This document shows positions 45,375 through 58,460 of a stretch of 64,000 nucleotides of DNA, piece after piece. Both the position numbers and the translations under genes were made by a program. The notes below the pieces were generated by a model. It had not been told where the DNA came from and did not search any database. It saw only the letters and a program-made list of their open reading frames with translations. Source of the stretch: Sphingobacterium alimentarium (GTDB lineage: Bacteria; Bacteroidota; Bacteroidia; Sphingobacteriales; Sphingobacteriaceae); NCBI RefSeq assembly GCF_004342685.1, contig NZ_SMBZ01000004.1, forward strand, positions 62,001-126,000, in the 5' to 3' direction. How positions within the stretch are numbered: the stretch's first letter is position 1; every line of letters begins with the position of its first letter.

Positions 45375-47360
45375 TTAATGCTGCAAGTTCGGGTCGTTCT
45401 TGATCCGTTCTATTTCGCTTTCCACAATATGCAGGATGTCTGATTTTATCTGACGGTAATTGCTTTCAATTTCCTGTTTCATTTTATCTTCTCCCTGTTC
45501 ATTAACAAAGGATAGGATTTCCGGTATCTTCTGATATACTTTAGTTTCTGCGGCAACTTTTTCATTGTCCACTACAATTTCAGCGTGAAAGATTTTTTGC
45601 TCAATACGTTCATCAAAATTATCTGATACCGAACCGACAAACATACCTTGTGTAAGTGTTGAGATTTTAGAAGCCGGAATAAGGCTGTCTAACTGTGTGG
45701 AGATAGAGGTAGATTTATCATTCCTGTTAATCGTCATACTTTGGCGTTTCTGCAATACTTTTCCGAAACGTTCCGAAAGGCTCTTTGCCGTTTCGCCAAC
45801 TACCTGCCCGGAGAAAATATTACCAACGGTATTTTGAATTACCTTACTTTCCTTGTCGCCATAATCCCTTGTTAATTGCGAAAAATCCTGAAAGCCCAAA
45901 CATACAGCCACCTTATTACTTCTCGCTGTTGCGATAAGATTATCCAGTCCCCTAAAATAAATTGTGGGCAGCTCATCTATGATTACTGAACTCTTTAATT
46001 GCCCTTTTTTGTTGATGAGCTTAACAATACGGGAATTGTACAAACCCAATGCTGCGGAGTAGATATTTTGGCGGTCGGGATTATTACCCACGCACAAAAT
46101 TTTAGGCTCTTTTGGGTTATTGATGTCGAGCGTAAAGTCATCGCCAGTCATAACCCAATACAACTGTGGGCTAATCATTCTTGACAAAGGGATTTTTGCC
46201 GATGCAATCTGTCCCTGCAATTGGTCTTGTGCGCCACCTTGCCAGGCATCCATAAACGGAGAAAGATAGTTTTCCAAATCGGAATATGAGGTCAGAATGG
46301 TAAATACGTCCGAATACTTTTTATTCAGCAATTCAATGGCGTGCGGGAATGTACAATACTTACCATCCTCATAGATTTTCAGATACCAAATAATGGCAGC
46401 CAATAGGATAATTGGGCTTTCCACGAAAAAATCCCCTTGCTTCTGTATCCAGCTACGGTTGAGGTTCAGCATTATGGTGTAAGCCGCTTCGTAAGCGTCG
46501 GAAATGTCTGTCATAAAATCGGGATTGAGTGGATTGCACCTATGGCTCTTGCGTGGGTCATCGAAATTTATCACATGGAATTTTGGTTGAACTTTGTACT
46601 TATCCCGATGCTTCAATAAATGATTGTAGGCAATGGTGGAAAGGTCGTCAAATTTAAAATCATATATATACATACTAAAGCCTTTCTCAATCTGCTGCTT
46701 GATGTAGTTGTTTACGATGGCATAAGATTTACCGGAACCCGGAGTACCCAACACGATTGATGCCCTGAAAGGATTTACAATGTTTATCCAACCGTTGTTC
46801 CATTTGCCTTTGTAGTAAAATTTGGTGGGCAGGTTAACGGAATATTCATTTTCCATCAGCTTTGTTTCCTGTTGAAAGCTCTCGTTCTCGTTGTTGAAAA
46901 CATCGTCCATTAAGTTGGTACGAAGCAAGCGGCTCATCCATACGCCCACCATCAGCAAAGCAATATAACCTAACGAGATAGTAAGGATATACAGAAATGT
47001 GCCTATTACCGGAGATAGCTTTAACAACGGCGTGTTCAGAAAGAACAGCACAAAACCAACGCCCAAAGCCACGTAGATTTTAGCCCAGGTTATCTTCTCA
47101 TTCTTTACGCCTTTCGTTCCCAAACAACTCAAAGCAAGCAAAACCAAAGCGAACGCCTTGGTATAAAGGGTATGTGAAAACAAGCCCGCCGTCCGGTCGA
47201 AATTGCCTAACATCTTGTTGATTATTTCCAACGTCCAACCACGTTCTAAAAAGAACCCGTAGCAGAACCAATAAAGGTGCATCAGCACCAAAAGAATACT
47301 GACTGCCCGCATAAAAGCCATTATTTTGGCTAAACCTCTTAAATCGTCTTCTCCCTGCAT
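45375..47360 (-). CDS. TraG/MobC-like type IV coupling protein
   Basis: A 661-residue coupling ATPase of the CTnDOT MobC/TraG kind. Four N-terminal membrane segments (about residues 12-35, 65-82, 93-112 and 118-145) precede the ATPase with Walker A GTPGSGKS (205-212), a Walker B region SSVIIDELPTIYFRGLDNL and FQDFSQLTRDYGDKE. It links the relaxase-DNA complex to the conjugation pore at the inner membrane. Its promoter region has a phased repeat array (47413-47457). The neighbouring relaxase is now a fragment, so transfer by its own relaxase is unlikely. Confidence 0.9.
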   Translation of the reverse strand: MQGEDDLRGLAKIMAFMRAVSILLVLMHLYWFCYGFFLERGWTLEIINKMLGNFDRTAGLFSHTLYTKAFALVLLALSCLGTKGVKNEKITWAKIYVALGVGFVLFFLNTPLLKLSPVIGTFLYILTISLGYIALLMVGVWMSRLLRTNLMDDVFNNENESFQQETKLMENEYSVNLPTKFYYKGKWNNGWINIVNPFRASIVLGTPGSGKSYAIVNNYIKQQIEKGFSMYIYDFKFDDLSTIAYNHLLKHRDKYKVQPKFHVINFDDPRKSHRCNPLNPDFMTDISDAYEAAYTIMLNLNRSWIQKQGDFFVESPIILLAAIIWYLKIYEDGKYCTFPHAIELLNKKYSDVFTILTSYSDLENYLSPFMDAWQGGAQDQLQGQIASAKIPLSRMISPQLYWVMTGDDFTLDINNPKEPKILCVGNNPDRQNIYSAALGLYNSRIVKLINKKGQLKSSVIIDELPTIYFRGLDNLIATARSNKVAVCLGFQDFSQLTRDYGDKESKVIQNTVGNIFSGQVVGETAKSLSERFGKVLQKRQSMTINRNDKSTSISTQLDSLIPASKISTLTQGMFVGSVSDNFDERIEQKIFHAEIVVDNEKVAAETKVYQKIPEILSFVNEQGEDKMKQEIESNYRQIKSDILHIVESEIERIKNDPNLQH

Positions 47361-47412
47361 TCTTTTTTAGTTTTAATGTTCGGGCGTGAATTTAAAGGCT
47401 CTACACAGCGGC

Positions 47413-47457
47413 TATAAGAATGTGGCAGTCAATGGCGGTGCGTGGCAGTGTTTGGCG
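47413..47457 (-). promoter_or_regulatory. 10-bp-phased direct repeat array (copy 3)
   Basis: On the minus strand CGCC, TGCC, CGCC and TGCC begin every 10 bases (47457, 47447, 47437, 47427), each followed by N5-C, and TTATA begins at 47417, 40 bases after the first. The coupling-protein ATG is at 47360. It is the same design as at 11827 and 18145. Confidence 0.6.
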
Positions 47458-47557
47458 AAGTGATAAGAGTTGTAGCTTCTATGATCCTTTTGTATCGTAA
47501 CATTTATGAAGCATCCAAATAAAAAATACTTTTAGTTGCTCTTCTGTTTTCTGTCCG

Positions 47558-47764
47558 TCAGCAACATTTTTTGTCCTGCTGAATTGGTGGACAAGGAACA
47601 CTTCCGTAACTACAATAAACACAACAGTCTCCTTGTTTTGGTTTAAGAACTTGTTTGCATTTTTCACATTCGTAGAAATATTGGCAAGCGTCTGTCGGCA
47701 TTGTTTCTTCTTTCTTGTGTCCGCAGTTGGGGCAAGTAATTGTTGATTGCAATATGATTTCCAT
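47558..47764 (-). CDS. GDCCVxC-domain protein
   Basis: A 68-residue Cys-rich protein: TCPNCGHKKEETMP, CEKCKQVL and the name-giving GDCCVYCSYGSVPCPP, ending KKCC. The pattern suggests two zinc or mercury-binding knuckles. In Bacteroidota it accompanies merTP-like genes. It is the last gene of a small mer module; its role, perhaps Hg(II) or Zn binding, is unproven. Seven bases separate it from the MerTP gene. Confidence 0.85.
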   Translation of the reverse strand: MEIILQSTITCPNCGHKKEETMPTDACQYFYECEKCKQVLKPKQGDCCVYCSYGSVPCPPIQQDKKCC

Positions 47765-47770
47765 TTGGTT

Positions 47771-48364
47771 TTATTTTTTGTCGGTTACAGAATATCCTGT
47801 TGAGTTAATTGCTTTTTCGACCTCAGAAATATTCGTTTTTGAGTTGTCAAATTCCACGATTGCGTTTCCTTTTTCGTATGAGGCGTTTGAACTTATTATT
47901 CCTGTCAATTTATTTACTTCGTGATTTACGTGTTCGCCACAACTTGCACAAGTCATTCCGCTAATCGTAAATTCTACTTTTTGAATATTGGATTTGTCCA
48001 CCGCTATAATTTGCTTTTCTGTCTTTGGGTAGAAAATGCTTGAGTAGTATGGAAAGGCAAGCATTACGATTGCAAATGCTGTTACAATTCCTAAAAACAT
48101 TTTTGACTGAATGAATTTTGGTTTTTCTTCTGTCTCACAATTGCAATCTATCTGCTTTTTGGGTTTCAACTTTTGATACCAAGCAAAACCAAGAACCAAA
48201 ATTGTCAACCCGATAAAATAGGGTCGAAAAGGTTCAAGCCAAGAAAAAGTGGAAGCAAGACCGCTTGTTCCTGCAATAAGAGCCAATACTGGTGTGATGC
48301 AACAAAGAGAAGCTGCAATTGTAGTCAAAAGTCCTGCACCAATTAATTTTTTGTCAGTTTTCAT
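47771..48364 (-). CDS. merTP: MerTP fusion mercuric transport protein
   Basis: A 197-residue inner-membrane mercuric ion transporter. The MerT part has three membrane segments, the first with the CC pair (SLCCITPVLALIAGTSGLAS), plus a cytoplasmic CNCE. The C-terminal part is a MerP-like HMA domain with GMTCASCGEHV. Members bring Hg(II) inward, normally for MerA reduction, but no merA is present here. It overlaps the regulator stop by four bases. Confidence 0.88.
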   Translation of the reverse strand: MKTDKKLIGAGLLTTIAASLCCITPVLALIAGTSGLASTFSWLEPFRPYFIGLTILVLGFAWYQKLKPKKQIDCNCETEEKPKFIQSKMFLGIVTAFAIVMLAFPYYSSIFYPKTEKQIIAVDKSNIQKVEFTISGMTCASCGEHVNHEVNKLTGIISSNASYEKGNAIVEFDNSKTNISEVEKAINSTGYSVTDKK

Positions 48365-48735
48365 ATTGTTTCTAATATTTTGTTTTCGTCAAGTATTTTG
48401 AAAAATGGTTTCAGCATTTTTTCATACTCTTTAGTCAGTGAGTGAAAAATAGTTTGAGCTTCTCGTTCGGTTTCAATAAGTTTTCTGTCTTTGAGTTTCC
48501 GCAAGTGTTGTGAAACCGCTGAAATTGTCATACCAAGAATATCACTTATATCACAAACACAAAGTCGTTTTTCTTCATAAAGTAGAAAGAGTATTTTCAG
48601 TCTTACATTGTTTCCCGCTAATTCAAGTCCGTTCGATAAATAGTCAAAAGAACCGTTGAGTTCTGAAACTCGGTCTTTACAGCGGTTTATTTGTTTAATG
48701 TCTGCTTGTTGTCGTATGCAAGAATTATTGTCCAT
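48361..48735 (-). CDS. ArsR-type regulator of the mer module
   Basis: About 124 residues from ATG 48735 (MDNNSCIRQQADIK); the longer frame to 48819 runs through the promoter. The winged HTH has RLCVCDISDILGMTISAVSQHLRKLKDRKLIETEREAQTIFHSL, with CVC before the recognition helix as the candidate metal site and a further N-terminal CIRQQ. It probably represses merTP-GDCCVxC until metal binds. The palindrome at 48760-48779 is the candidate operator. Confidence 0.85.
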   Translation of the reverse strand: MDNNSCIRQQADIKQINRCKDRVSELNGSFDYLSNGLELAGNNVRLKILFLLYEEKRLCVCDISDILGMTISAVSQHLRKLKDRKLIETEREAQTIFHSLTKEYEKMLKPFFKILDENKILETI

Positions 48736-48759
48736 AGCACAAAGATAGTCACTTTGTTT

Positions 48760-48779
48760 ATTTAAGCAATTACTTAAAT
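48760..48779 (-). promoter_or_regulatory. mer-module operator palindrome
   Basis: ATTTAAG-N6-CTTAAAT, a perfect 7+7 inverted repeat 25 bases upstream of the regulator ATG (48735). The adjacent CACAAAGATAGTCACTTTG may be a second repeat. Confidence 0.5.
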
Positions 48780-48863
48780 ACAACTCAAATTCTTTCAGAA
48801 TTATAAAGTGACAGCTCAATAAATCTTTTTAAAAACAGATTTTTAATTCCAAAATCTGACCTC

Positions 48864-49481
48864 TTACAGTCTTCTTTTTTTTTTCTTCTTCATTTTGTTA
48901 GCAAAATCCTGTTCCTCGTAATCATCGCCCTGTGCTTCGGGTAACAAACCGCCAAATGTCTCAATCAAACCGTCTTCGTGTTTTTCAGTAGTATTCAGGA
49001 AGTCGAACAAATGATGAGGTTCTTCCGCAGGAAGATCTGCATCATTTGATGTGGATGTTTTTGGAAGTTGTACGACAGGTTCTTTAATCTCCGGTTTGAT
49101 ATTATTGTTCCAATAATCATTAAAGGTATTGGCAGAAAGTTCCTTTGCTAAGCGTGAACCGTTCCAAACCGCCTTTGAATTGTGGTCTATGAAAGTGATA
49201 CCATAAATACGACCTGTATCGTTCCGGCGGACCACTACATTAATGCCCTGTTCACTCAACTGCTTTTTAAAAGCCTGCTCATCATTTGTGGATTTCAGAG
49301 CAATAGAAATTGCAGCTTTTAGGGTCTGCTTACTTGGGTGGTCTTTTAAATCCTCTTTGCATTTTGCAAAATGCAGTTCCAAAGCCGGAAGCCCTGCATT
49401 TTTACCAAACAACGAAGCCTTGAACGGATGCCCGGCTGATATTCTTTGGGGTTTCTTGATATAATATAAAACAAAAAACCC
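48864..49481 (-). pseudogene. Relaxase (MobB-type) fragment, N terminus missing
   Basis: About 205 codons are open from 49481 (stop TGA at 49482-49484) to the stop at 48864. It reads KKPQRISAGHPFKASLFGKNAGLPAL and then INVVVRRNDTGRIYGITFIDHNSKAVWNGSRLAKELSAN, the C-terminal region of CTnDOT-like MobB relaxases, ending in a Lys/Arg-rich tail. The catalytic N-terminal domain is absent; the frame runs into a terminator hairpin. The element was truncated here by later rearrangement. It is the only remaining relaxase sequence of the ICE. Confidence 0.7.
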
Positions 49482-49508
49482 TCAAATTCATAGAATTTGA
49501 GGGTTTTT
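49471..49508. terminator. Perfect hairpin at the element junction
   Basis: AAAAACCCTCAAATTC / GAATTTGAGGGTTTTT, a near-perfect long stem with T-runs both ways. On the minus strand it follows the tRNA-Pro-like 3' end at 49529-49544, the arrangement expected for a tRNA terminator. Confidence 0.75.
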
Positions 49509-49528
49509 GACCTTACTTAGTGTAAGTG

Positions 49529-49544
49529 TGGTCGGGGTGGCAGG
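49529..49544 (-). other. tRNA-Pro 3'-end-like sequence (candidate att site)
   Basis: On the minus strand CCTGCCACCCCGACCA fits the T-stem 3' half, acceptor stem 3' strand (CACCCCG), discriminator A and CCA of a proline tRNA starting CGGGGTG. The T-loop just upstream is wrong (GGAATCTT in place of the TTCGAAT pattern), and no rest of a tRNA is present. It is the kind of 3' fragment left when an integrative element enters a tRNA gene. The rest of 49545-49790 has no supported gene. Confidence 0.4.
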
Positions 49545-49790
49545 AAGATTCCACACCTCCGCAAATATCTATCAATCAATTGGTTGAAAATACTTTTGAA
49601 GAACCGCTCACCTTTTTGCTCACATATAGTTTGCTCGGTTATTGGTATAAAGATAGGGATTTAAACCAACAAAAGGAAGCAATCGGCTACAAATTATACA
49701 TCAGCCATTCACCGTAAACAGCCAAAGCGAGAACAGCGCAAGACAAAGAGCGGTGGGGTTTCGCAAGCCACTAATGAGCGAGGGGATATA

Positions 49791-50810
49791 TTATTTTGTT
49801 GTTTGTAATTGTTTCCCAGCATACGTACCATACGCTTTTCCTGATACTTCTCCCAACTTATAATAGTCTGCTAATACTTTAAGAGTTAGGGTAATATCAT
49901 TTTCGTCTTCAATAAACAACTTTCTATCTTTTAACTTTAGTGTTTCTCCATACTTCTTACATATTCGTTGCATTTTTCGGATAGTTTTCGCATCAAGGCC
50001 TTGATAGTTGCCAATTTTTGTTAATCGAACAAGTTTTTTATGGATAGATGGGTTTCCTTCAATTTGTTTGGCGATGATTTCAAGCCCTTCAATCATATTT
50101 GTTGAAGCTAATGCTGTTACTACTTCTTTTGCCTGATTTTTATATTCTTCCTCTAAGCCAATAATTTGCTCGAATTGAGTCTTCTTTGCTATGTAAAAAG
50201 TGTCTTCGTAATATATACAGTCAATTTGTTTGTCTAAGTTTACTGTCTCTCCCTCAATCAATTCAAGCTTTTGGCTTTTAGAATTGAAAATTGTCCTTAT
50301 AGTCTTTTGGAGTTTACTTTTTTTATTACTATCATTCTCATCTATAGCCACCTTAGCAGCGAGTATCTTTCTGAAAGTGTAAACCCACTCGTTTTCATCA
50401 TTGTAGAAACCGACACAATAAGCCCACAATTCTTCATTCACAATAATTTCTTCTAAACTCTTTATTTTAGGCGGATTTGAACTTAATTGATTATTGACAA
50501 CATCGTAAAAAGACATTGCTTTATTAGTCATTTGATATGTGAATAATTGGGCTGTATCATCTGTAATTACATCGTATTCGTGCAATTCAGTTTTTCGTTT
50601 TACAAGACCATTTAATTGCTCTTGTGTTAGCGTGTACAGATGTTCCCTGATTTCATCGTTGACATCAATTTGGTAAACTTTGAACAAATATTTATCCATT
50701 ATTTTACTTGATGCTTTTACTTCAGGCTTTAGCACCCTTGTGATAAAGTAGAGGATTACATTATCCTCACTTATATTTTCTATTTTTTGTAAAAGTTCCT
50801 CGATAATCAT
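49791..50810 (-). CDS. kwaB: Kiwa defence protein KwaB (DUF4868)
   Basis: A 339-residue protein of the DUF4868 family. Family-type blocks are ELHEYDVITDDTAQLFTYQM near residue 80, YYEDTFYIAKKTQFEQIIGLEEEYKNQAKEVV near 205-240, and the C-terminal KLKDRKLFIEDENDITLTLKVLADYYK. In Kiwa, KwaB works with the membrane protein KwaA to stop phage. It overlaps the kwaA stop by four bases and is the last gene of the defence operon. The family call is confident; that this copy works is inferred. Confidence 0.8.
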   Translation of the reverse strand: MIIEELLQKIENISEDNVILYFITRVLKPEVKASSKIMDKYLFKVYQIDVNDEIREHLYTLTQEQLNGLVKRKTELHEYDVITDDTAQLFTYQMTNKAMSFYDVVNNQLSSNPPKIKSLEEIIVNEELWAYCVGFYNDENEWVYTFRKILAAKVAIDENDSNKKSKLQKTIRTIFNSKSQKLELIEGETVNLDKQIDCIYYEDTFYIAKKTQFEQIIGLEEEYKNQAKEVVTALASTNMIEGLEIIAKQIEGNPSIHKKLVRLTKIGNYQGLDAKTIRKMQRICKKYGETLKLKDRKLFIEDENDITLTLKVLADYYKLGEVSGKAYGTYAGKQLQTTK

Positions 50811-51439
50811 TTATTTGAGTTATTACTGGTTGCGAAATATAGTTTATGCCCGATTTCATAAAGTTTTACTTTACAATCATCTTGCAAAAATTTGTCTCGT
50901 GAAATAATCAATCCATTTCTATTTTTACCATTTTGAGCGATGTATTCAATTTCATATATACCGAATCTAAAACTCAAAAGCGGATTGATTAAAAGTAAAG
51001 ACGAATTAATGTAAATACGATAAATTATCAAAAGTAGAAAAATGACAGAAGCACATTCGTACCAACCATCAAAACTTTGAAATAAAAACGGGATTATGTA
51101 CGTAGCGATATATCCAATTGATTCACTGTTTTTATTCTTAACATCAGTAATAATTACTGGGTTTCCATTTTTTGCAACTTCTTCAATATTTGCTAATGTT
51201 TTCCAATAACCAAATGCCCCAATGACCGAGAAAGTGATAAGAAATGCTGATAAACCAAATTTTACCCCGAACATTTTCACGGATTCCCAAGAAACCCCTG
51301 CCCAGTTTAGATATTCACTATTCACAGATACCTGCCTTACTATCAGTAGCAAAAACAAAGGCAAATAGGATGACACGAAAAGCGAAAATTGAGCTATTCC
51401 GTGCAAATTATTAATTCCTTTGTTCTGTCGTTTAGTCAT
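50807..51439 (-). CDS. kwaA: Kiwa defence protein KwaA
   Basis: A 210-residue membrane protein with four hydrophobic segments (about residues 16-35, 52-75, 108-128 and 128-150) and the family block IYRIYINSSLLLINPLLSFRFGIYEIEYI. The C terminus is cytoplasmic-like and beta-rich. In Kiwa, KwaA is the membrane component partnered with KwaB. Its ATG overlaps the stop of the PD-(D/E)XK-like gene by one base, so it is translationally tied to the restriction-type genes. Confidence 0.78.
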   Translation of the reverse strand: MTKRQNKGINNLHGIAQFSLFVSSYLPLFLLLIVRQVSVNSEYLNWAGVSWESVKMFGVKFGLSAFLITFSVIGAFGYWKTLANIEEVAKNGNPVIITDVKNKNSESIGYIATYIIPFLFQSFDGWYECASVIFLLLIIYRIYINSSLLLINPLLSFRFGIYEIEYIAQNGKNRNGLIISRDKFLQDDCKVKLYEIGHKLYFATSNNSNK

Positions 51440-52017
51440 TACATTCTCAATATTTCTGCTAATTCTTCGAAAGAAGAAATCCCGTTGATGTCTGCTGTAT
51501 CAATCCAGTCAATCCCTCCTGCTGGCAAATAGTTTATAATCCCCGTTTTGAAATTGTATTGTTCATTAATTTTTTTCATATCAATAAACCAATCCATAGG
51601 AAGCTTTTTCAATCGAACAATTTCTTGAAAGTCATTTGATAGTTTATTAGACGACATTCCCTTTTGAATAAGAAGTAACAAACCTAAATCAATGGTTTTT
51701 GCAACCTGTAAATAGCCCACCAACTGCGAATAATCTTTCAAACTCAACTGGTTTAAATACTTTGCTTCAATCAATATCAATCGTACTTTTTTATCAGGAT
51801 TGATTATGGCAAATACAATATCTACTTTCAGTTTAGGAATGTAAATTCCTTCTTCTTTTATGGTAATCCCCGATTGTTTCTCTAAATCATAAATAATAAA
51901 ATCTAACGTTTTATTACAGGAATAAAAAACGCTATAGTTATCTCCAAGATATGTATTTAGATATTGGCTGAATTTCTTTGAAAATTCTTCATAATAACTT
52001 ATTTCATTCTGTATCAC
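51439..52017 (-). CDS. PD-(D/E)XK-like nuclease-fold protein
   Basis: A 192-residue protein of no named family that I recognise. Residues about 64-90 (KLKVDIVFAIINPDKKVRLILIEAKYLNQ) give D66-x17-E84-A-K86, the acidic/ExK core of PD-(D/E)XK nucleases, followed by a helix and QLVGYLQVAK. This looks like the cleavage subunit of a restriction-type system. It overlaps the LAGLIDADG-like gene by one base and kwaA by one base. Fold assignment is by motif only. Confidence 0.6.
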   Translation of the reverse strand: MIQNEISYYEEFSKKFSQYLNTYLGDNYSVFYSCNKTLDFIIYDLEKQSGITIKEEGIYIPKLKVDIVFAIINPDKKVRLILIEAKYLNQLSLKDYSQLVGYLQVAKTIDLGLLLLIQKGMSSNKLSNDFQEIVRLKKLPMDWFIDMKKINEQYNFKTGIINYLPAGGIDWIDTADINGISSFEELAEILRM

Positions 52018-53339
52018 TATTTCAAATTTACGGTTAGGTTATCTACTTTAATTTTTGTTTTTATGAGTTGTTGATTCAAGCTGTTGCTTACAGATGAACA
52101 AATAAAAGCTCTGTCATTCACTGGGTTAATGACTAATAATGGACTATCAAATGTGTTTCCAATGGTTTTCAATGTTAATATTGCAGTTGTATGCGTATTG
52201 ATAATACCGTCCATTGAACCAATATGTCTTTTCCCGTTTAAAGTTTCTGCAAATAGATAGGCAATGCCTTGGTCAATACCCGTGAAACTTTTAAAATCTT
52301 CGTGTTCTATAAGTCTTGAAACTTTGGCTTTATGCGTTGAAATTTCCAATTCGGGAAAATATTCGGCTTTAATTTCTTCCAACTTTTTCAAAAGTTCTTT
52401 TTTCGTTCCCTTTGATAATCTTGGGAAAAAGTTGATATATCTATTTTTGTTTTTTACTAATTTTTCAATTTCCTCAACAGGTGCGTGACGACAACCCAAA
52501 ACCGCACAAAAATGATGATAGTGAAAGAACAGTTTGTTTCTTACTTCAATTGGTAGCTCATCAGAATTTTGGTCTGTATGAACGGAAACAGGACTTGGCG
52601 TCCTTAGTTTTCTTAAAATACAAGGGATTTGCTCTTCTTTCTTTTGATGCTTCTCTATTTTGGTTACGTCAATTGATTTGGCTTGTAACGCAAAAGAATA
52701 TTGGGTAAGAAAGGAACGAACCAAAAAACGAATTTTAAATCCTTTTTTCCAACCTTTATAATCAGGGTCTGAAGCTGAATGTTGGTTTGGGTGATTGTAC
52801 AAAATTTGATCAGTTGTCGAACCTAAATCTGTAAGCCAAGCACAAAGCTGAACAACAAAATTAAAATTCCGAGTGCTTCCCGGAATCTCAACAGAAACTA
52901 CTGGCGCATCATCTGTAAATCTTCTGTGTGATAATGTCAAACTTGCTCTTGTATCAAAAATTCCAGATAAAAAACTTGCAGTATTTATGCCTGTCAATTT
53001 TAATTTAGCGGTTGTCAAATCAGCAGAAGACAGCAGAAATCCTCCAATCGGCAACCCCAAATATTGTAAGTCATTTTTCAGACTTGAAATATCGGAATTA
53101 TCCAATGGCATAATCAACCATTTACCGTTCCCAATTTCGTAAGTTACATTAAAACTATATGAGGTGTTAAAATATTGACATATCTTCGTAAGAATATCAG
53201 TTGCGATAATATTCATCCGTTTCGGCTCCATTCCCCATTTTTTGAAGGGAAGGTCAATTACAAATGTGTTTTCATCTATTTTCCCACTCCCAACTAATAA
53301 CCCAAGTATATATGCTTTAATATGATTAATATTTTCCAT
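52017..53339 (-). CDS. LAGLIDADG-like protein with degenerate catalytic positions
   Basis: A 440-residue protein. Two segments resemble LAGLIDADG helices about 110 residues apart: AYILGLLVGSGKID (residues 9-22) and SFLSGIFDTRASLTLS (122-137). At the place of the catalytic acid the first has Ser and the second Arg. The N-terminal ~240 residues fit a single-chain LAGLIDADG fold. The rest includes HHFCAVLGCRHAP (possible metal knuckle) and an unknown C-terminal domain. It follows the C5 methyltransferase (14-base overlap) and precedes the nuclease-like gene, so it may be a sequence-recognition subunit. Confidence 0.5.
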   Translation of the reverse strand: MENINHIKAYILGLLVGSGKIDENTFVIDLPFKKWGMEPKRMNIIATDILTKICQYFNTSYSFNVTYEIGNGKWLIMPLDNSDISSLKNDLQYLGLPIGGFLLSSADLTTAKLKLTGINTASFLSGIFDTRASLTLSHRRFTDDAPVVSVEIPGSTRNFNFVVQLCAWLTDLGSTTDQILYNHPNQHSASDPDYKGWKKGFKIRFLVRSFLTQYSFALQAKSIDVTKIEKHQKKEEQIPCILRKLRTPSPVSVHTDQNSDELPIEVRNKLFFHYHHFCAVLGCRHAPVEEIEKLVKNKNRYINFFPRLSKGTKKELLKKLEEIKAEYFPELEISTHKAKVSRLIEHEDFKSFTGIDQGIAYLFAETLNGKRHIGSMDGIINTHTTAILTLKTIGNTFDSPLLVINPVNDRAFICSSVSNSLNQQLIKTKIKVDNLTVNLK

Positions 53340-54624
53340 TCTCTAAATGCTTTTCCAATGCCTTGGCAATAACCCAAGCAAAAACTGGCGGAACTGCATT
53401 ACCAATTACTTTGTAAGCATTCGCAATGGTCTTGTAAGGGAATTTAAAATTATCAGGAAATGATTGAATCCTTGCAATCTCTCTAATAGTAAACCTCCTG
53501 TTTTCAAAGGGATGCGTAATACCACAATTTTCAGGTTGAGCCGATGCTGTGATAGTACCATTAATTTCACCCAATGCAAATCTACGATAGAAATTAGGTG
53601 CATGATATTTTTTAGGGTTATCCCAAATTCTTCTAAAACGTTCCGACATGTCTTCGGGATTCATACTTTTCCAAGATTTACCTTGTGAAATCGTTTTACT
53701 AATTTGATTCAAGGGTGTTCTTTTTTTGAATTTGGTTAATGCCTCTTTCCCATCTTCACATGGTCCTATTTTATCAACCATATATTGCCCCCCAGGGGAA
53801 TATTTCCAGTAATCATTAGCTTGTGGTGCACTTTTAGGTATATCACATAAAGCAGAGCCAAGATATAAATCATAAGGATTATATACTTCGTTCGGTAGAT
53901 TATATTCCATAACGATTTGCTCCAGCAAGTTAAAATCAAAATGACCTAAATCTAAATCTTTCCGTAACCCAATAATGATTAAGCGTTGTCGATTGGAAGG
54001 AACCCCATAGTTGCTTGTTTTTAATAGTTTATAGCAGGTTTTAAAACCTAATTTTTCCGTTCTTTTTACAATTTCGTCAGGTATGCTTGTCCCGTCTGCC
54101 ATTTTTGAGGATAAAATACCTTTAACATTTTCAAAAACAAAGCCTATGGGTTTGTTTTCCCTTTGTAACCCTACTTTTAGTAGTCGTTCACATTCCTCAA
54201 AGAGATTTCCTCTTTCGTCATTAATACCTTTTCTCAATCCAGCATTTGAAAATGGTTGACAAGGAAATCCTGCGAGTAAAAAATCAAAATCAGGAATATC
54301 TTCAAAGTTAACATCTTTTATATCTTCACGATGCAACTTGTGGTCATTGAAAAAAGAAGTATTCGCATTATAAACATATTCTGCAGCAGGGTCGATATCA
54401 TTAGAATATTCAATTCTGAATTTGGTTTTATCGAAATGTCTGTCTCGAAAATCAAAGTTTCCCGAAAAGCCTAAATCTAATCCGCCACAACCACTAAAAA
54501 GAGATACAATTTTTAAAGCTTCCTTTCGATTTACGGAAGTTTTACGTTTATAGGTGTTAAAGTCAATAAACATTTGTGGTTCTTCGACAATTGAAATTGT
54601 TTCTAATTCATTTTGAGTGTACAT
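53326..54624 (-). CDS. DNA cytosine-5 methyltransferase
   Basis: A 432-residue C5 methyltransferase. Motif I is LKIVSLFSGCGGLDLGFSG, motif IV LAGFPCQPFSNAG (catalytic Cys near 122), motif VI FVFENVKGI, motif VIII VPSNRQRLIIIG, and motifs IX-X end with IARIQSFPDNF and KVIGNAVPPVFAWVIA. It is full length, with a moderate target-recognition region between VIII and IX. It likely protects host DNA from the restriction part encoded next. The recognition sequence cannot be read from the gene. It starts six bases after the XRE regulator stop. Confidence 0.93.
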   Translation of the reverse strand: MYTQNELETISIVEEPQMFIDFNTYKRKTSVNRKEALKIVSLFSGCGGLDLGFSGNFDFRDRHFDKTKFRIEYSNDIDPAAEYVYNANTSFFNDHKLHREDIKDVNFEDIPDFDFLLAGFPCQPFSNAGLRKGINDERGNLFEECERLLKVGLQRENKPIGFVFENVKGILSSKMADGTSIPDEIVKRTEKLGFKTCYKLLKTSNYGVPSNRQRLIIIGLRKDLDLGHFDFNLLEQIVMEYNLPNEVYNPYDLYLGSALCDIPKSAPQANDYWKYSPGGQYMVDKIGPCEDGKEALTKFKKRTPLNQISKTISQGKSWKSMNPEDMSERFRRIWDNPKKYHAPNFYRRFALGEINGTITASAQPENCGITHPFENRRFTIREIARIQSFPDNFKFPYKTIANAYKVIGNAVPPVFAWVIAKALEKHLENGKY

Positions 54625-54629
54625 AATGT

Positions 54630-54956
54630 TTAAAGCTTTAAAGTTATTTGTTTTGTGTTTTTCTGCCTGATGTATTTTACTTTTTCTTCTGCAAGGGTTA
54701 GTACATTGTCATTACATCTGGATTGATAAATTGTATTTGCAATTTTCTCACTTATCAATTCAGACTTTAACATTTCTAAATCAAGATTAAATGCTTCTGC
54801 AAGATTTGGCAAAAAGACTTCATCCAATTCCTTCTTTCCTGTCTCGATTTTGCTCAAAGCACCAGAATCAATACCAAGTTTTGCGCCTAATTGGGTAAGC
54901 GTCCATCCATTTTGAGTTCTTAGTTTTCTGATATACTCTCCGAAATTTGCTTCCAT
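54630..54956 (-). CDS. XRE-family regulator (controller protein-like)
   Basis: A 108-residue HTH_3 protein: IRKLRTQNGWTLTQLGAKLGIDSGALSKIETGKKELDEVFLPNLAEAFNLDLEML is a canonical XRE domain, followed by a short helical C terminus. As the first gene of a methyltransferase/restriction-like/Kiwa operon it resembles C-proteins that time restriction expression. It likely binds its own promoter in 54957-55029; no clear palindrome was picked out there. Confidence 0.85.
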   Translation of the reverse strand: MEANFGEYIRKLRTQNGWTLTQLGAKLGIDSGALSKIETGKKELDEVFLPNLAEAFNLDLEMLKSELISEKIANTIYQSRCNDNVLTLAEEKVKYIRQKNTKQITLKL

Positions 54957-55029
54957 TGTCTTGAAATTTTCATCTTGACGATTTCAACAAAAATATAGAT
55001 TAGGTTGATGATACCCAAATAATTTAGCA

Positions 55030-55668
55030 TTATTTTTTATCTCCTGTTCTTTTCAGCCGATTCACTTCTTCTTTTGCCCGTTCTGCCTGTTCCGTGGACT
55101 GCCTTGCACTTTCTTCGGCTTTTCTAATGGCAATCAACCGTTCTTCCTCCTGCTTCACCCAAATTCTAAGTTGTTTGGGATTGTTGTAGTAGATGGAATC
55201 TATATCCAAAGAAACTTGCGGATAAAGTAATCTAACCATGCGAATTTTGATGTCACTGTCGCACAGAGCGGAGTTTGACCGCCAAAGCTGAATGCTGGCG
55301 AAAAGAGAAAGTACCGATACAAGCACAAGGACTGCTCCCGTAATGACATACGGTCGTTGTCGCCCTGTTAGGCGATGCTCCACATTGACCTTTATTCGCT
55401 GTGGCATTTCGCTTATCGCTTTCTTCTGTTGCTCCAAAGCGGTGACAAGGCTATCGGTTGCCTTAGCGTGCTTTAGGATGGACGCTTTCAGTCCGACAAG
55501 CGTTTCGTCCTGTATATTGCTCTCCAACTTCTTGACTATATCTGCCAATTCTGCTGAATAGTCTTTGGTTTCGGATTGCTGTTTTTCGAGTTGTTGCACA
55601 CGTTTATCCATTAGTACCACTATCTCCTGTTGGTCTTTAACAGCGGTCTGTAATTCCTGTTCGTTCAT
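55030..55668 (-). CDS. Coiled-coil membrane protein of the mobilization region
   Basis: A 212-residue protein with an N-terminal coiled coil (residues 1-90), a single membrane helix (ITGAVLVLVSVLSLFASIQLW, about 109-129), then IYYNNPKQLRIWVKQEEERL and a charged C-terminal helix. It lies just after the relaxase gene and is transcribed with it. Small membrane coiled-coil proteins follow relaxases in many Bacteroidota mobilizable elements; the role is unknown. Confidence 0.7.
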   Translation of the reverse strand: MNEQELQTAVKDQQEIVVLMDKRVQQLEKQQSETKDYSAELADIVKKLESNIQDETLVGLKASILKHAKATDSLVTALEQQKKAISEMPQRIKVNVEHRLTGRQRPYVITGAVLVLVSVLSLFASIQLWRSNSALCDSDIKIRMVRLLYPQVSLDIDSIYYNNPKQLRIWVKQEEERLIAIRKAEESARQSTEQAERAKEEVNRLKRTGDKK

Positions 55669-55680
55669 TTTTTTAGTGTT

Positions 55681-56628
55681 TTATCTGCTGATTCCTCTTG
55701 ATTTTTCTTCCTCCGGTTTCTTTTTCTTCCTGCGCCACGTTGGGTCGGGTTCGGGTTCTATCGAAGCGGGCATATCCAGTAGGTCACCGAGCAAACCCAA
55801 TCCCGTTTCGTATTCCTCTGACCGATGTTCCTGTTGTCCGAGTACCTCCCTTATCTGGTCGGCAAGTGTAGTGGACTGTGATATTTCCGTTCCCCGATTG
55901 TGGCTTAACTGTTTCTTCATACTGGCGAAACTAAATTTGCGGTCGATAGCCGAACCTTTGAACTTTACACCATCCTTTTCAAATGAAATGCCCTGCACTT
56001 CATTTGTTCCGCTACGGTACTTATAATGGATGCCGATGTCCTGCCTTGCAAGCATCGTTTCCACCTGTTTCCATGTGGTGGCTTTCGCCATGATGGATTT
56101 AAGGGCATCGTGTATCGCATAGCGCAACCTGTCATTTCCCCGAAGTGCCTGCCTATTCACCTTTGCCTTACCCTTGCCGAGATGGTAGCCGTAACGCTCG
56201 GTCGTCTCCCTGCATACCTTTCGGCTTTTGTGCCAATGGTTGAAATTGCCTATCGTCTTTCCATCGTTGTCCACTCGGTTATATACAATATGTACGTGTG
56301 GGTGTTTCTTATCGGTATGCAGTACGGTAAGGTACTGGGTATTCTTGATGCCCATCTTTTCCATGTATTCCCTTGCATGCTCCACCATCTTCTCTATGCT
56401 AAGTTTATCCCTGTCCTCGTTGCTCCAACTTAGCACGGTATGCCCTACGGCATTGCCAAGCTGTGGGCGCATCTTGCGCTGTGCGTTGAGGTCGGCAATA
56501 ATCGCCTTGATGTCATAATCCCTAACGCCTGCCGAGTCCAAAACAAAGGACTTTTCACGTTCCAACAGGTAACGGACGCAACCGCCGAAACTTTTGCCCG
56601 TAATAACCTTAGCTATCATCCTTACCAA
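55681..56628 (-). CDS. MOBP-type relaxase/mobilization nuclease
   Basis: A 315-residue relaxase. MIAKVITGKSFGGCVRYLLE at the start (an ATG three codons in is also possible), VGHTVLSWSNEDRD, then the metal-binding three-His motif in KKHPHVHIVYNRVDNDGK (His near 109, 111 and 113), fit the VirD2-like relaxase fold. It nicks at oriT and carries the strand during transfer. Its start overlaps the mobC end by 20 bases. A candidate oriT lies upstream of mobC at 57041-57128. Confidence 0.9.
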   Translation of the reverse strand: MVRMIAKVITGKSFGGCVRYLLEREKSFVLDSAGVRDYDIKAIIADLNAQRKMRPQLGNAVGHTVLSWSNEDRDKLSIEKMVEHAREYMEKMGIKNTQYLTVLHTDKKHPHVHIVYNRVDNDGKTIGNFNHWHKSRKVCRETTERYGYHLGKGKAKVNRQALRGNDRLRYAIHDALKSIMAKATTWKQVETMLARQDIGIHYKYRSGTNEVQGISFEKDGVKFKGSAIDRKFSFASMKKQLSHNRGTEISQSTTLADQIREVLGQQEHRSEEYETGLGLLGDLLDMPASIEPEPDPTWRRKKKKPEEEKSRGISR

Positions 56629-56989
56629 TCCTTTCCATTAACTGCTCCACTTCGTTCAGTAAACTGCGCAGATTCGCCATGATTGACACAAGCCCTCCCT
56701 TGTGTGCAAGCTTGGTCAACTGGTTGAGATTGTTTGCCATGCCGGACAATGTGCGCAGGTAGCCCGTTTCCTCTTTTGAAAGTCTTGGTCTTATTTCGGC
56801 AGTCTTTGCGGACTGCCGAAACCAATCGCTTATCCGCATGCCCGCATTTCTCGCTTTCCCTGCAATCGCCAAACGTTCGGTAGGGGTTATCCGTACCACG
56901 AGCGAAACGCTCCGTGTGATGGCTTTTTTCGGACGGCCACGCTTGCGTGTTATTCCGTCCGTCTCCTTTTCTTTCGCCAATTTTTTCAT
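56609..56989 (-). CDS. mobC: MobC-type relaxosome protein
   Basis: A 126-residue accessory protein. A basic N terminus (KRGRPKKAITRSVSLVVRITPTERLAIAGKARNAGM) resembles a ribbon-helix-helix DNA-binding start, and the C-terminal MANNLNQLTKLAHKGG is the usual bacterial MobC signature. It helps the relaxase open oriT DNA. Its stop lies inside the relaxase gene. Base composition here is noticeably richer in G+C than the defence operon. Confidence 0.88.
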   Translation of the reverse strand: MKKLAKEKETDGITRKRGRPKKAITRSVSLVVRITPTERLAIAGKARNAGMRISDWFRQSAKTAEIRPRLSKEETGYLRTLSGMANNLNQLTKLAHKGGLVSIMANLRSLLNEVEQLMERIGKDDS

Positions 56990-57040
56990 TGGCGAACCTC
57001 CCCAAGTTTACGGACTGCGACCATCGGGAGCATCCGCCGT

Positions 57041-57128
57041 TCCCCACACTGCGGAGCGTGGGGGAAAGGTTTTTTGCATTGCAAAAAAATAAACTTGCTC
57101 CCTACAGGGCGACAAAGGTTTACCTTTG
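57041..57128. other. Candidate oriT region (hairpin cluster)
   Basis: Three inverted repeats are packed upstream of mobC: TCCCCACAC/GCGTGGGGGA (57041-57064), TTTTTTGCA-T-TGCAAAAAA (57070-57088) and CAAAGGT-TT-ACCTTTG (57113-57128). The position between mobC and the HTH gene is usual for oriT in small mobilizable elements. No nick site can be named. Confidence 0.45.
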
Positions 57129-57196
57129 GAGTACTGACTGCGGGTAGCGTGTCTTTCCGGTAGTCTTTCCGAAAATCTTTCCGCTCTTTACAGGTG

Positions 57197-57475
57197 CTAT
57201 TCCCCATCTTCACCTCCCTCCATCAGCTTTTGGATGTCCTCATATTTATAGTACATCAGTCCACCGATTTTCTTGAACGGCAATGTGCCGTTCACACGTA
57301 GGTTCTGCAATGTGCCTGCCGATATGCCGAGCAACTTGCGCACCTCGTAGCTTTTGAACCATGCCCTCTGTTCCTGTCCGTGTTTTCTTGGGTGGGGGCT
57401 GTGCTTTCTGATTTCCTCGAACAGTTCCTTTTTGAATTTTTCGAGGTCATCCCTCGTGATGAGCTCTACGTTCAT
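57197..57475 (-). CDS. Excisionase-like helix-turn-helix protein (second element)
   Basis: A 92-residue protein: RAWFKSYEVRKLLGISAGTLQNLRVNGTLPFKKIGGLMYYKYEDIQKLM is an HTH_17-type core, with an N-terminal helical, basic part. It is probably a regulator or excision factor of the mobilizable element with the relaxase and the integrase at 62965. It has the same fold as those at 11157 and 11527 but different sequence. Confidence 0.8.
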   Translation of the reverse strand: MNVELITRDDLEKFKKELFEEIRKHSPHPRKHGQEQRAWFKSYEVRKLLGISAGTLQNLRVNGTLPFKKIGGLMYYKYEDIQKLMEGGEDGE

Positions 57476-57514
57476 CTTTCCTCCTTTGTGTTATCGTTAA
57501 AAAATCTGTTACCA

Positions 57515-57606
57515 TACGGATGGAAACAAACGGTATGTTTCCGACCGCTTTTGGTACAAAGGAATGGAACAGGGCAATACGGTCATGACCGTTACTTTAC
57601 GGATGG
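57515..57606 (-). promoter_or_regulatory. Repeats upstream of the HTH gene
   Basis: Inverted repeat GGAAACA-N7-TGTTTCC (57522-57542), a 14-bp palindrome ACGGTCATGACCGT (57579-57592) and a direct repeat TACGGATGG (57515-57523 and 57598-57606) occupy the gap before the HTH gene. They are likely regulator or replication-type binding sites; which one is not clear. Confidence 0.4.
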
Positions 57607-57686
57607 TCATTTTTGATACGCTTCCGTATTGGTTTACAGAAAGTTAAGAAATTAGTTAGGTTTGGCTTGATTTGAAATGTATATTG

Positions 57687-58460
57687 TTATAAACGTCTTT
57701 TTTTGGCAGGAACAATGTCGAAAAGCCTATTTTTTGACGGTACTTCGGCATATTTTTTCTTTAAATCTCTGAGGTCTGCCGGAAAATACCGTTGTATGGT
57801 ATCTGTACTGATAGGTTGCTTGTTTTCTCGGAAATATCGGCATATCATCTTTATCCATACCGTAGCAAATTGGGAGAAAACCAACTCACGCCCGTCCTTT
57901 AAATCCTGCTTCCTTAGCTTTACAAAAAGGTCAACTACCGTTAAAACGTAGCCCTCGGGGATGTCGATATAACCCTCCGTCTCGAGTTTTTGGGCTTCTT
58001 TAAGTTCTTTGGTAAGTTGCACCACGATTTCCTTTAACTCCTTAATTTCGCTTTCCTTTTCTGCTATAATTTCGTCTTTTGTCCTGCTAACGTTCCATTG
58101 GTCTATCGAAACGAGATGGTCAAGGAATGCCCTTAGCTTTTTTTTCTGCTGTACGATGCTTTTGTGCTTTGATTTGGATTCCCGTTTATCGTCCGCTATG
58201 AGCTTGTTAAGTTCATCGCTCACAATGTCGTTCACGTGTCTGAAAAATTCGCTTTCGGACGCTTCTTTGTTCTCCTGCAAAAAGAATTGCAGATGGTGGT
58301 CATAGTATGCCCCAAATTCATCCTGTGTGCGTTCGTAAAGCCTTTTTAGGAAATGTAGGTCATAATGTCCTTTCCACCAAAAGAAAGGCATACCAATATC
58401 AAACGGATGCTGTGCTTTTCCAAAGCGGGGGCGTGTCTTAAAATATATTCTCTCTTTCAT
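57687..58460 (-). CDS. Coiled-coil protein of the mobilizable element
   Basis: A 257-residue soluble protein. The N terminus has FDIGMPFFWWKGHYDLHFLKRLYERTQDEFG. The middle (about residues 125-165) is a predicted coiled coil rich in Glu/Lys, followed by YVLTVVDLFVKLRKQDLKDGRELVFSQFATVWIKMICRYF. No family is recognised, but it belongs to the set near the HTH gene and could have a replication or maintenance role. A positively charged tail (PAKKRRL) ends it. Confidence 0.6.
   Translation of the reverse strand: MKERIYFKTRPRFGKAQHPFDIGMPFFWWKGHYDLHFLKRLYERTQDEFGAYYDHHLQFFLQENKEASESEFFRHVNDIVSDELNKLIADDKRESKSKHKSIVQQKKKLRAFLDHLVSIDQWNVSRTKDEIIAEKESEIKELKEIVVQLTKELKEAQKLETEGYIDIPEGYVLTVVDLFVKLRKQDLKDGRELVFSQFATVWIKMICRYFRENKQPISTDTIQRYFPADLRDLKKKYAEVPSKNRLFDIVPAKKRRL

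Follow-up and report, generated by a model that had tools for sequence, protein, structure and literature searches.

A LAGLIDADG-type protein without catalytic acids in a putative two-subunit restriction-modification module

Why would a protein that resembles a LAGLIDADG homing endonuclease, without the catalytic acids of one, be encoded between a DNA methyltransferase and a small nuclease? The question arose in a 64,000-nucleotide stretch of Sphingobacterium alimentarium DNA (hereafter the window), in which five closely packed genes run on the minus strand from 54956 to 50807, and a sixth, KwaB, reaches 49791. On that strand the gene order is XRE-type HTH, C5 methyltransferase, P440, P192, KwaA and KwaB. 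The XRE/HTH protein (54630-54956, PF01381 with E=2e-11) is the probable control protein of the module, and its position recurs in relatives. The C5-cytosine DNA methyltransferase (53326-54624) matches PF00145 with E=1e-67 as well as TIGR00675, and its FSGCGG, PCQ, ENV and GNAVPP motifs are intact. P440 (440 aa, 52017-53339) is the proposed DNA-recognition subunit, and P192 (192 aa, 51439-52017) the proposed catalytic subunit. A preliminary description, made from the DNA letters alone, had the P440 gene overlapping both the C5 methyltransferase gene and a PD-(D/E)XK-like gene, and we can confirm both overlaps, which are 14 nt and 1 nt; the P192 and KwaA genes also overlap by 1 nt.

Our answer is that 51439-54956 is probably a Type II-like restriction-modification system in which the restriction endonuclease is split over two proteins, a LAGLIDADG reader (P440) and a PD-(D/E)XK cutter (P192). 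Host sites would be modified by the C5 methyltransferase, and expression of the module is probably timed by the XRE protein. P440, as a pseudo-dimeric, non-cutting LAGLIDADG fold, would read the DNA sequence, and P192 would cut once P440 had delivered it to an unmethylated site, unless the methyltransferase had marked that site. The fold, the loss of the acids, an intact nuclease signature, the gene neighbourhood, the exchange of methyltransferases and purifying selection are what we observe. DNA binding, a complex of the two proteins, site-specific cleavage and protection by the methyltransferase are inferred from these, with neither biochemistry nor a model of the complex behind them.

The fold of P440 and its catalytic positions

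According to structure models and profile comparison, residues 1 to ~240 of P440 (52620-53339, bounded by the secondary structure of the AlphaFold2 model) are a two-repeat LAGLIDADG fold. The model was built from a 17-row alignment and has a mean pLDDT of 80. The LAGLIDADG repeat is seen twice in it, within residues 6-235, each time as helix-strand-strand-helix-strand-strand-helix with the motif helix first. When the model was compared with the PDB using Foldseek, all 50 of the 50 matches listed were LAGLIDADG proteins, among them PI-SceI (E 3.8e-7, the best), I-Tsp061I (E 4.3e-7, TM 0.63 by target length) and I-DmoI. A 290-aa relative from a viral contig (L018), which is only ~21% identical to P440, was modelled separately and has the same order of helices and strands; it again returned LAGLIDADG proteins, including I-Tsp061I (E 1.1e-7, TM 0.69 by target length), and WhiA (3hyi) was among the matches listed. 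A search of a viral structure library also returned LAGLIDADG. The alignments given to AlphaFold2 were shallow (12-17 rows), two rows from annotated phage records were left out of the first of them, and the whole-chain TM-scores are moderate, the two values above being the target-normalised maxima for P440 and the phage form.

Profile comparison supports the same fold. Against 20 ordinary LAGLIDADGs, most of them from inteins and all from other genomes in this phylum, the P440-family profile scored 61.7 in hhalign (E 3.6e-8) with both repeats in register, while the score did not exceed 21.2 in 30 column shuffles and was 16.9 for the reversed alignment, so the resemblance is beyond chance. Ordinary searches did not find it. 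Models from Pfam, NCBIfam, PADLOC and PHROGs gave P440 no significant match, PDB sequences gave it none, and no known stand-alone restriction-enzyme family turned up in these searches; homologues in such a family were an outcome that, according to the preliminary description, would refute it. Searches of PDB sequences with proteins and profiles gave nothing useful, and a loose Pfam threshold gave only chance matches (RICH, E 0.014). No LAGLIDADG Pfam model matched P440, and at the curated threshold LAGLIDADG_3 (PF14528) had no match in its own genome. The fold of the C-terminal domain (residues ~255-440, 52020-52577) is unassigned, with no significant Pfam or PDB match found; its pLDDT is ~90 from residue 290 on. 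In the alignment, the C-terminal ~155 residues of P440 are missing from the phage and plasmid forms.

The two motif helices of P440 are YILGLLVGSGKI (residues 10-21) and FLSGIFDTRASL (residues 123-134), of which YILGLLVGSGK (residues 10-20, 53280-53312) and FLSGIFDTRAS (residues 123-133, 52941-52973) align with intein LAGLIDADG motifs. The corresponding motifs in an ordinary intein LAGLIDADG (L030) are YLLGLLVGDGTL and FLRGLFDADGSV. Both helices are collinear with the two intein motifs in the profile alignment, and therefore Ser18 and Arg131 occupy the catalytic-acid columns. Residue 18 varies among S, G, A and N and residue 131 between R and T, so that none of the 14 aligned relatives has an acid at either, while the ordinary LAGLIDADGs of the comparison set retain theirs. 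As far as aligned sequences can tell, the catalytic acids are lost across the whole P440 family. Where dN/dS could be computed it was 0.03-0.08 for both P440 and P192, which indicates that P440 is a maintained protein in which the loss of the acids is established, and not a decaying gene. The preliminary description had suggested two LAGLIDADG-like helices with Ser and Arg in place of the acids, and would have been refuted by an unrelated predicted fold; the models, the Foldseek matches, the profile comparison and the alignment bear it out on each of these points.

P440 shares the two-repeat fold and the motif helices with single-chain LAGLIDADG homing endonucleases such as I-Tsp061I, I-DmoI and PI-SceI, but it differs from them in having lost the acids, in lying outside any intron or intein and in being part of a restriction-modification operon. 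An active homing endonuclease would have an acid ending each motif helix, and P440 does not; nor is its gene found in an intron, in an intein or as a free-standing homing gene, as it sits in a methyltransferase operon at all loci.

P192 and the conserved neighbourhood

The PDDEXK_3 match of P192 is weak (E 0.004, below the gathering score). Its active-site core, D66...E84-A-K86 (51760-51822), is invariant in 11 of 11 aligned sequences, and an N-terminal acid (E), D66, E84-A-K86 and Q98xxxY102 are kept in P192 relatives without exception, down to ~25% identity. By these residues, and without a structure model, P192 has the full PD-(D/E)XK active-site signature, and no other gene of the module encodes a recognisable nuclease signature. 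We also weighed the possibility that P192 is a Vsr-type repair enzyme and rejected it, as the Vsr models gave no match.

We found 13 bacterial relatives of P440, 59-96% identical to it, mostly in Bacteroidota and otherwise in metagenome bins labelled Desulfobulbaceae, Treponema and Ignavibacteriaceae. A C5 methyltransferase lies directly upstream of P440 in all of them (13/13; in L009 it is cut by the contig end), and P192 lies directly downstream wherever the contig and the P440 gene extend far enough, in shortened form in L010. Most bacterial loci with sufficient upstream sequence have an XRE protein at the equivalent position, and the flanks of the module differ from one bacterial locus to another. 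No additional copy emerged when 395 genomes from the phylum were searched twice, and the system is therefore rare.

Two of these copies are unusual. In Sphingobacterium sp. T2 (L006:6001-7321), a frameshift near residue 349 breaks the P440 gene while the methyltransferase gene is open, so either restriction has been lost or this is a sequencing error. A copy 93% identical to that of the window is on a 4.4-kb contig (L003) from a metagenome bin labelled Treponema, and reflects either wrong binning or recent transfer.

Scanning viral sequences with the alignment of the Bacteroidota proteins gave no match at first. The second branch of the family was reached through a weak phage tblastn match (E 3e-3), the neighbourhood of which proved to be a module of methyltransferase and pair. 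In this branch, P440-like proteins of 290-299 aa without the C-terminal domain are each followed by a PD-(D/E)XK protein of 158-174 aa, and the methyltransferases differ. In L015, L027, L028 and L029, the pair is preceded by a fusion of EcoRI-type m6A and C5 methyltransferases in one protein of ~700 aa (L015:622-2748, L027:609-2717, L028:2214-4316); the carriers are phages PV036447 and PV036410 and L. plantarum plasmids p9 and pCYLB101-2. The EcoRI-type m6A and C5 enzymes are separate genes before the pair in L018 and L022, and in viral contigs L016 and L017 the pair follows two amino-methyltransferases, one Eco57I-type and one N6_N4. The pair in L016 and L017 is closest to that in L022, yet their methyltransferases are of different kinds, and we therefore consider the pair to be constant and the methyltransferase exchangeable. 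The two members of the pair diverge in step (r=0.98 for R1 against R2 identity), the correlation with the methyltransferase being slightly lower (0.96). In total, the search for conserved neighbours that the preliminary description called for found the module of methyltransferase, LAGLIDADG-like protein and PD-(D/E)XK protein at 14 bacterial loci. It is also carried by two plasmids, by five phage or viral contigs and by another phage record.

Public records of plasmids and phages label the relatives 'hypothetical protein'. This is the case for the 292-aa and 168-aa proteins that accompany the fused methyltransferase on the two small L. plantarum plasmids (L028:1-6495 and L029), which would be the clearest experimental system. 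Besides replication genes and a YafQ-type TA toxin, plasmid p9 (6.5 kb, Lactiplantibacillus; its proteins include WP_220639322 and WP_253735072) carries only the fused methyltransferase and the pair, and so consists almost entirely of this system. We also noted that in L022 a protein with a NOV_C-type (NO VEIN) C-terminal domain is encoded between the methyltransferases and the pair (L022:2023-3099), and that a 149-aa protein whose N-terminal start resembles it by eye follows the pair in two viral contigs (L016:6371-6820, L017:5199-5648). These proteins are possibly an accessory part.

A probable split endonuclease and other explanations

Two features expected of a Type II system, a methyltransferase adjacent to the pair of restriction genes and the absence of any helicase or ATP-dependent translocase/ATPase gene from the conserved module, are present, the former at all loci examined. 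A pair that stays constant while the methyltransferase changes, that is always beside a methyltransferase, and that joins a non-catalytic fold for DNA reading to a nuclease with no evident reader, is what would be expected if the pair is a two-subunit restriction endonuclease. Asymmetric sites like those of Type IIS/IIT systems, in which each strand requires a methyltransferase to itself, are suggested by the phage and plasmid versions with two methyltransferases, and such sites fit a pseudo-symmetric LAGLIDADG monomer as the reader. The sites may be of another kind for the Bacteroidota form, which has one C5 methyltransferase and the extra C-terminal domain of P440.

Among known systems, the heterodimeric Type IIS/IIT enzymes (BtsI, BsrDI, BspD6I/BstNBI, BbvCI and Bpu10I) are likewise encoded by two genes beside at least one methyltransferase, and in BtsI the recognition domain is in the larger subunit and part of the catalytic domain in the smaller (PMC2909958, PMC4081073). 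However, both subunits are catalytic in these heterodimers, whereas here only the small protein has a recognisable active site. Type IIT enzymes have two catalytic sites, one per subunit, and P440 has neither the acids nor another nuclease pattern, so the module does not qualify. The large subunit is also of LAGLIDADG type here, unlike in those heterodimers, and has no PDB sequence match. Type I systems and Type IIB systems such as BsaXI and BcgI also place recognition on a polypeptide of its own, the S subunit, which reads DNA through TRDs and is used for methylation as well as for cleavage (PMC11997821, PMC4027205). In contrast, the methyltransferases here are of stand-alone kinds and the recognition fold is different. 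Homing endonucleases of the I-SspI type, as far as a reference listed in PMC3943268 indicates, are PD-(D/E)XK enzymes, that is, a restriction fold used for homing; they would be the mirror image of the homing fold used for restriction here.

The main rival explanation, which we consider unlikely without dismissing it, is that P192 is a complete restriction enzyme that reads its own site, while P440 binds DNA in an accessory role, such as that of a WhiA-like operon regulator. Some restriction enzymes have only 160-190 aa, PvuII is of similar size, and P192 or P165 would be big enough to act alone, which speaks against a split enzyme. The sites of LAGLIDADG enzymes are usually long (PMC9957025) and would be too rare for defence; the specificity of P440 would need shortening, and this also counts against its role as a reader. 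There is precedent for the accessory role in WhiA, a LAGLIDADG protein with a role in transcription that has lost catalysis and kept DNA binding (PMC4255298). WhiA (DUF199) shares with P440 a LAGLIDADG fold without catalytic residues, and its structure 3hyi is the Foldseek match to the phage form noted above. However, WhiA is a regulator of transcription encoded on the chromosome, has a sigma-like domain and is unlinked to any nuclease or methyltransferase; that second domain is not seen in P440, and no WhiA Pfam model was among the P440 matches. The module already has an XRE regulator, and the two proteins stay together across ~20-25% identity and three kinds of methyltransferase while diverging in step with each other (0.98 against 0.96).

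More doubtful is the idea that the module is a methylation-linked defence or addiction system with another outcome, such as modification-dependent cutting or a nuclease freed on loss of the methyltransferase. Carriage on small plasmids and phages suits addiction, and PD-(D/E)XK proteins serve in other systems too, but a methyltransferase is beside the nuclease at every locus examined, the dual asymmetric-style methyltransferases best fit protection of host sites, and we found no known modification-reader domain. That P440 itself cuts through relocated catalytic residues, with P192 as a second nuclease or repair partner, draws some support from the invariance of Asp129 (the first-D position of motif 2) and from the two active sites that double-strand cutting usually takes, but is the least credible of the three, given that the catalytic columns are S/G/A/N and R/T throughout, Asp129 corresponds to the D that is not catalytic in ordinary LAGLIDADGs, motif 1 has no substitute conserved acid, and the C-terminal domain lacks a D/ExK or HNH pattern.

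Returning to the split endonuclease, we found no description of a restriction system made of a LAGLIDADG reader and a separate cutter in the open-licence full-text literature; REBASE was outside the scope of this search. We incline to the view that this is an undescribed restriction-modification architecture, in which a dead LAGLIDADG protein reads and a separate PD-(D/E)XK protein cuts, and which is low in frequency but widespread in Bacteroidota, Bacillota, phages and plasmids with unrelated methyltransferases. The recognition fold would be new, within a known kind of system (Type II-like restriction-modification). LAGLIDADG proteins are major long-site DNA readers in genome engineering. If our reading is correct, one more fold serves recognition in restriction enzymes, engineered meganuclease-nuclease fusions have a natural counterpart split over two proteins, and how a long-site reader shrinks to a short restriction-modification site becomes a testable question. 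Exchange of the reader or of the nuclease in such a two-protein layout could yield new cutters.

Kiwa genes and the surrounding mobile element

In the window, the restriction-modification genes are followed by KwaA and KwaB of the Kiwa defence system (49791-51439), with overlaps of 1 nt and 4 nt, and the two sets of genes look like one transcription unit. This joint layout is found only in the window and in a Chryseobacterium locus (L001), the other loci being without it, and we therefore rejected Kiwa as a part of the restriction-modification system and regard it as separate cargo.

The cassette is located in a mobile element (45375-58460). On one side there are a relaxase and a MobC/NikA-like protein (55681-56989), and on the other a TraG-like coupling protein (45375-47360); a MerT-like protein is encoded nearby (47771-48364). 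No Pfam match was found for the ORF at 48864-49412, which we take to resemble a Bacteroidota relaxase at its C-terminal end, with the N-terminal part missing, and which is possibly a remnant.
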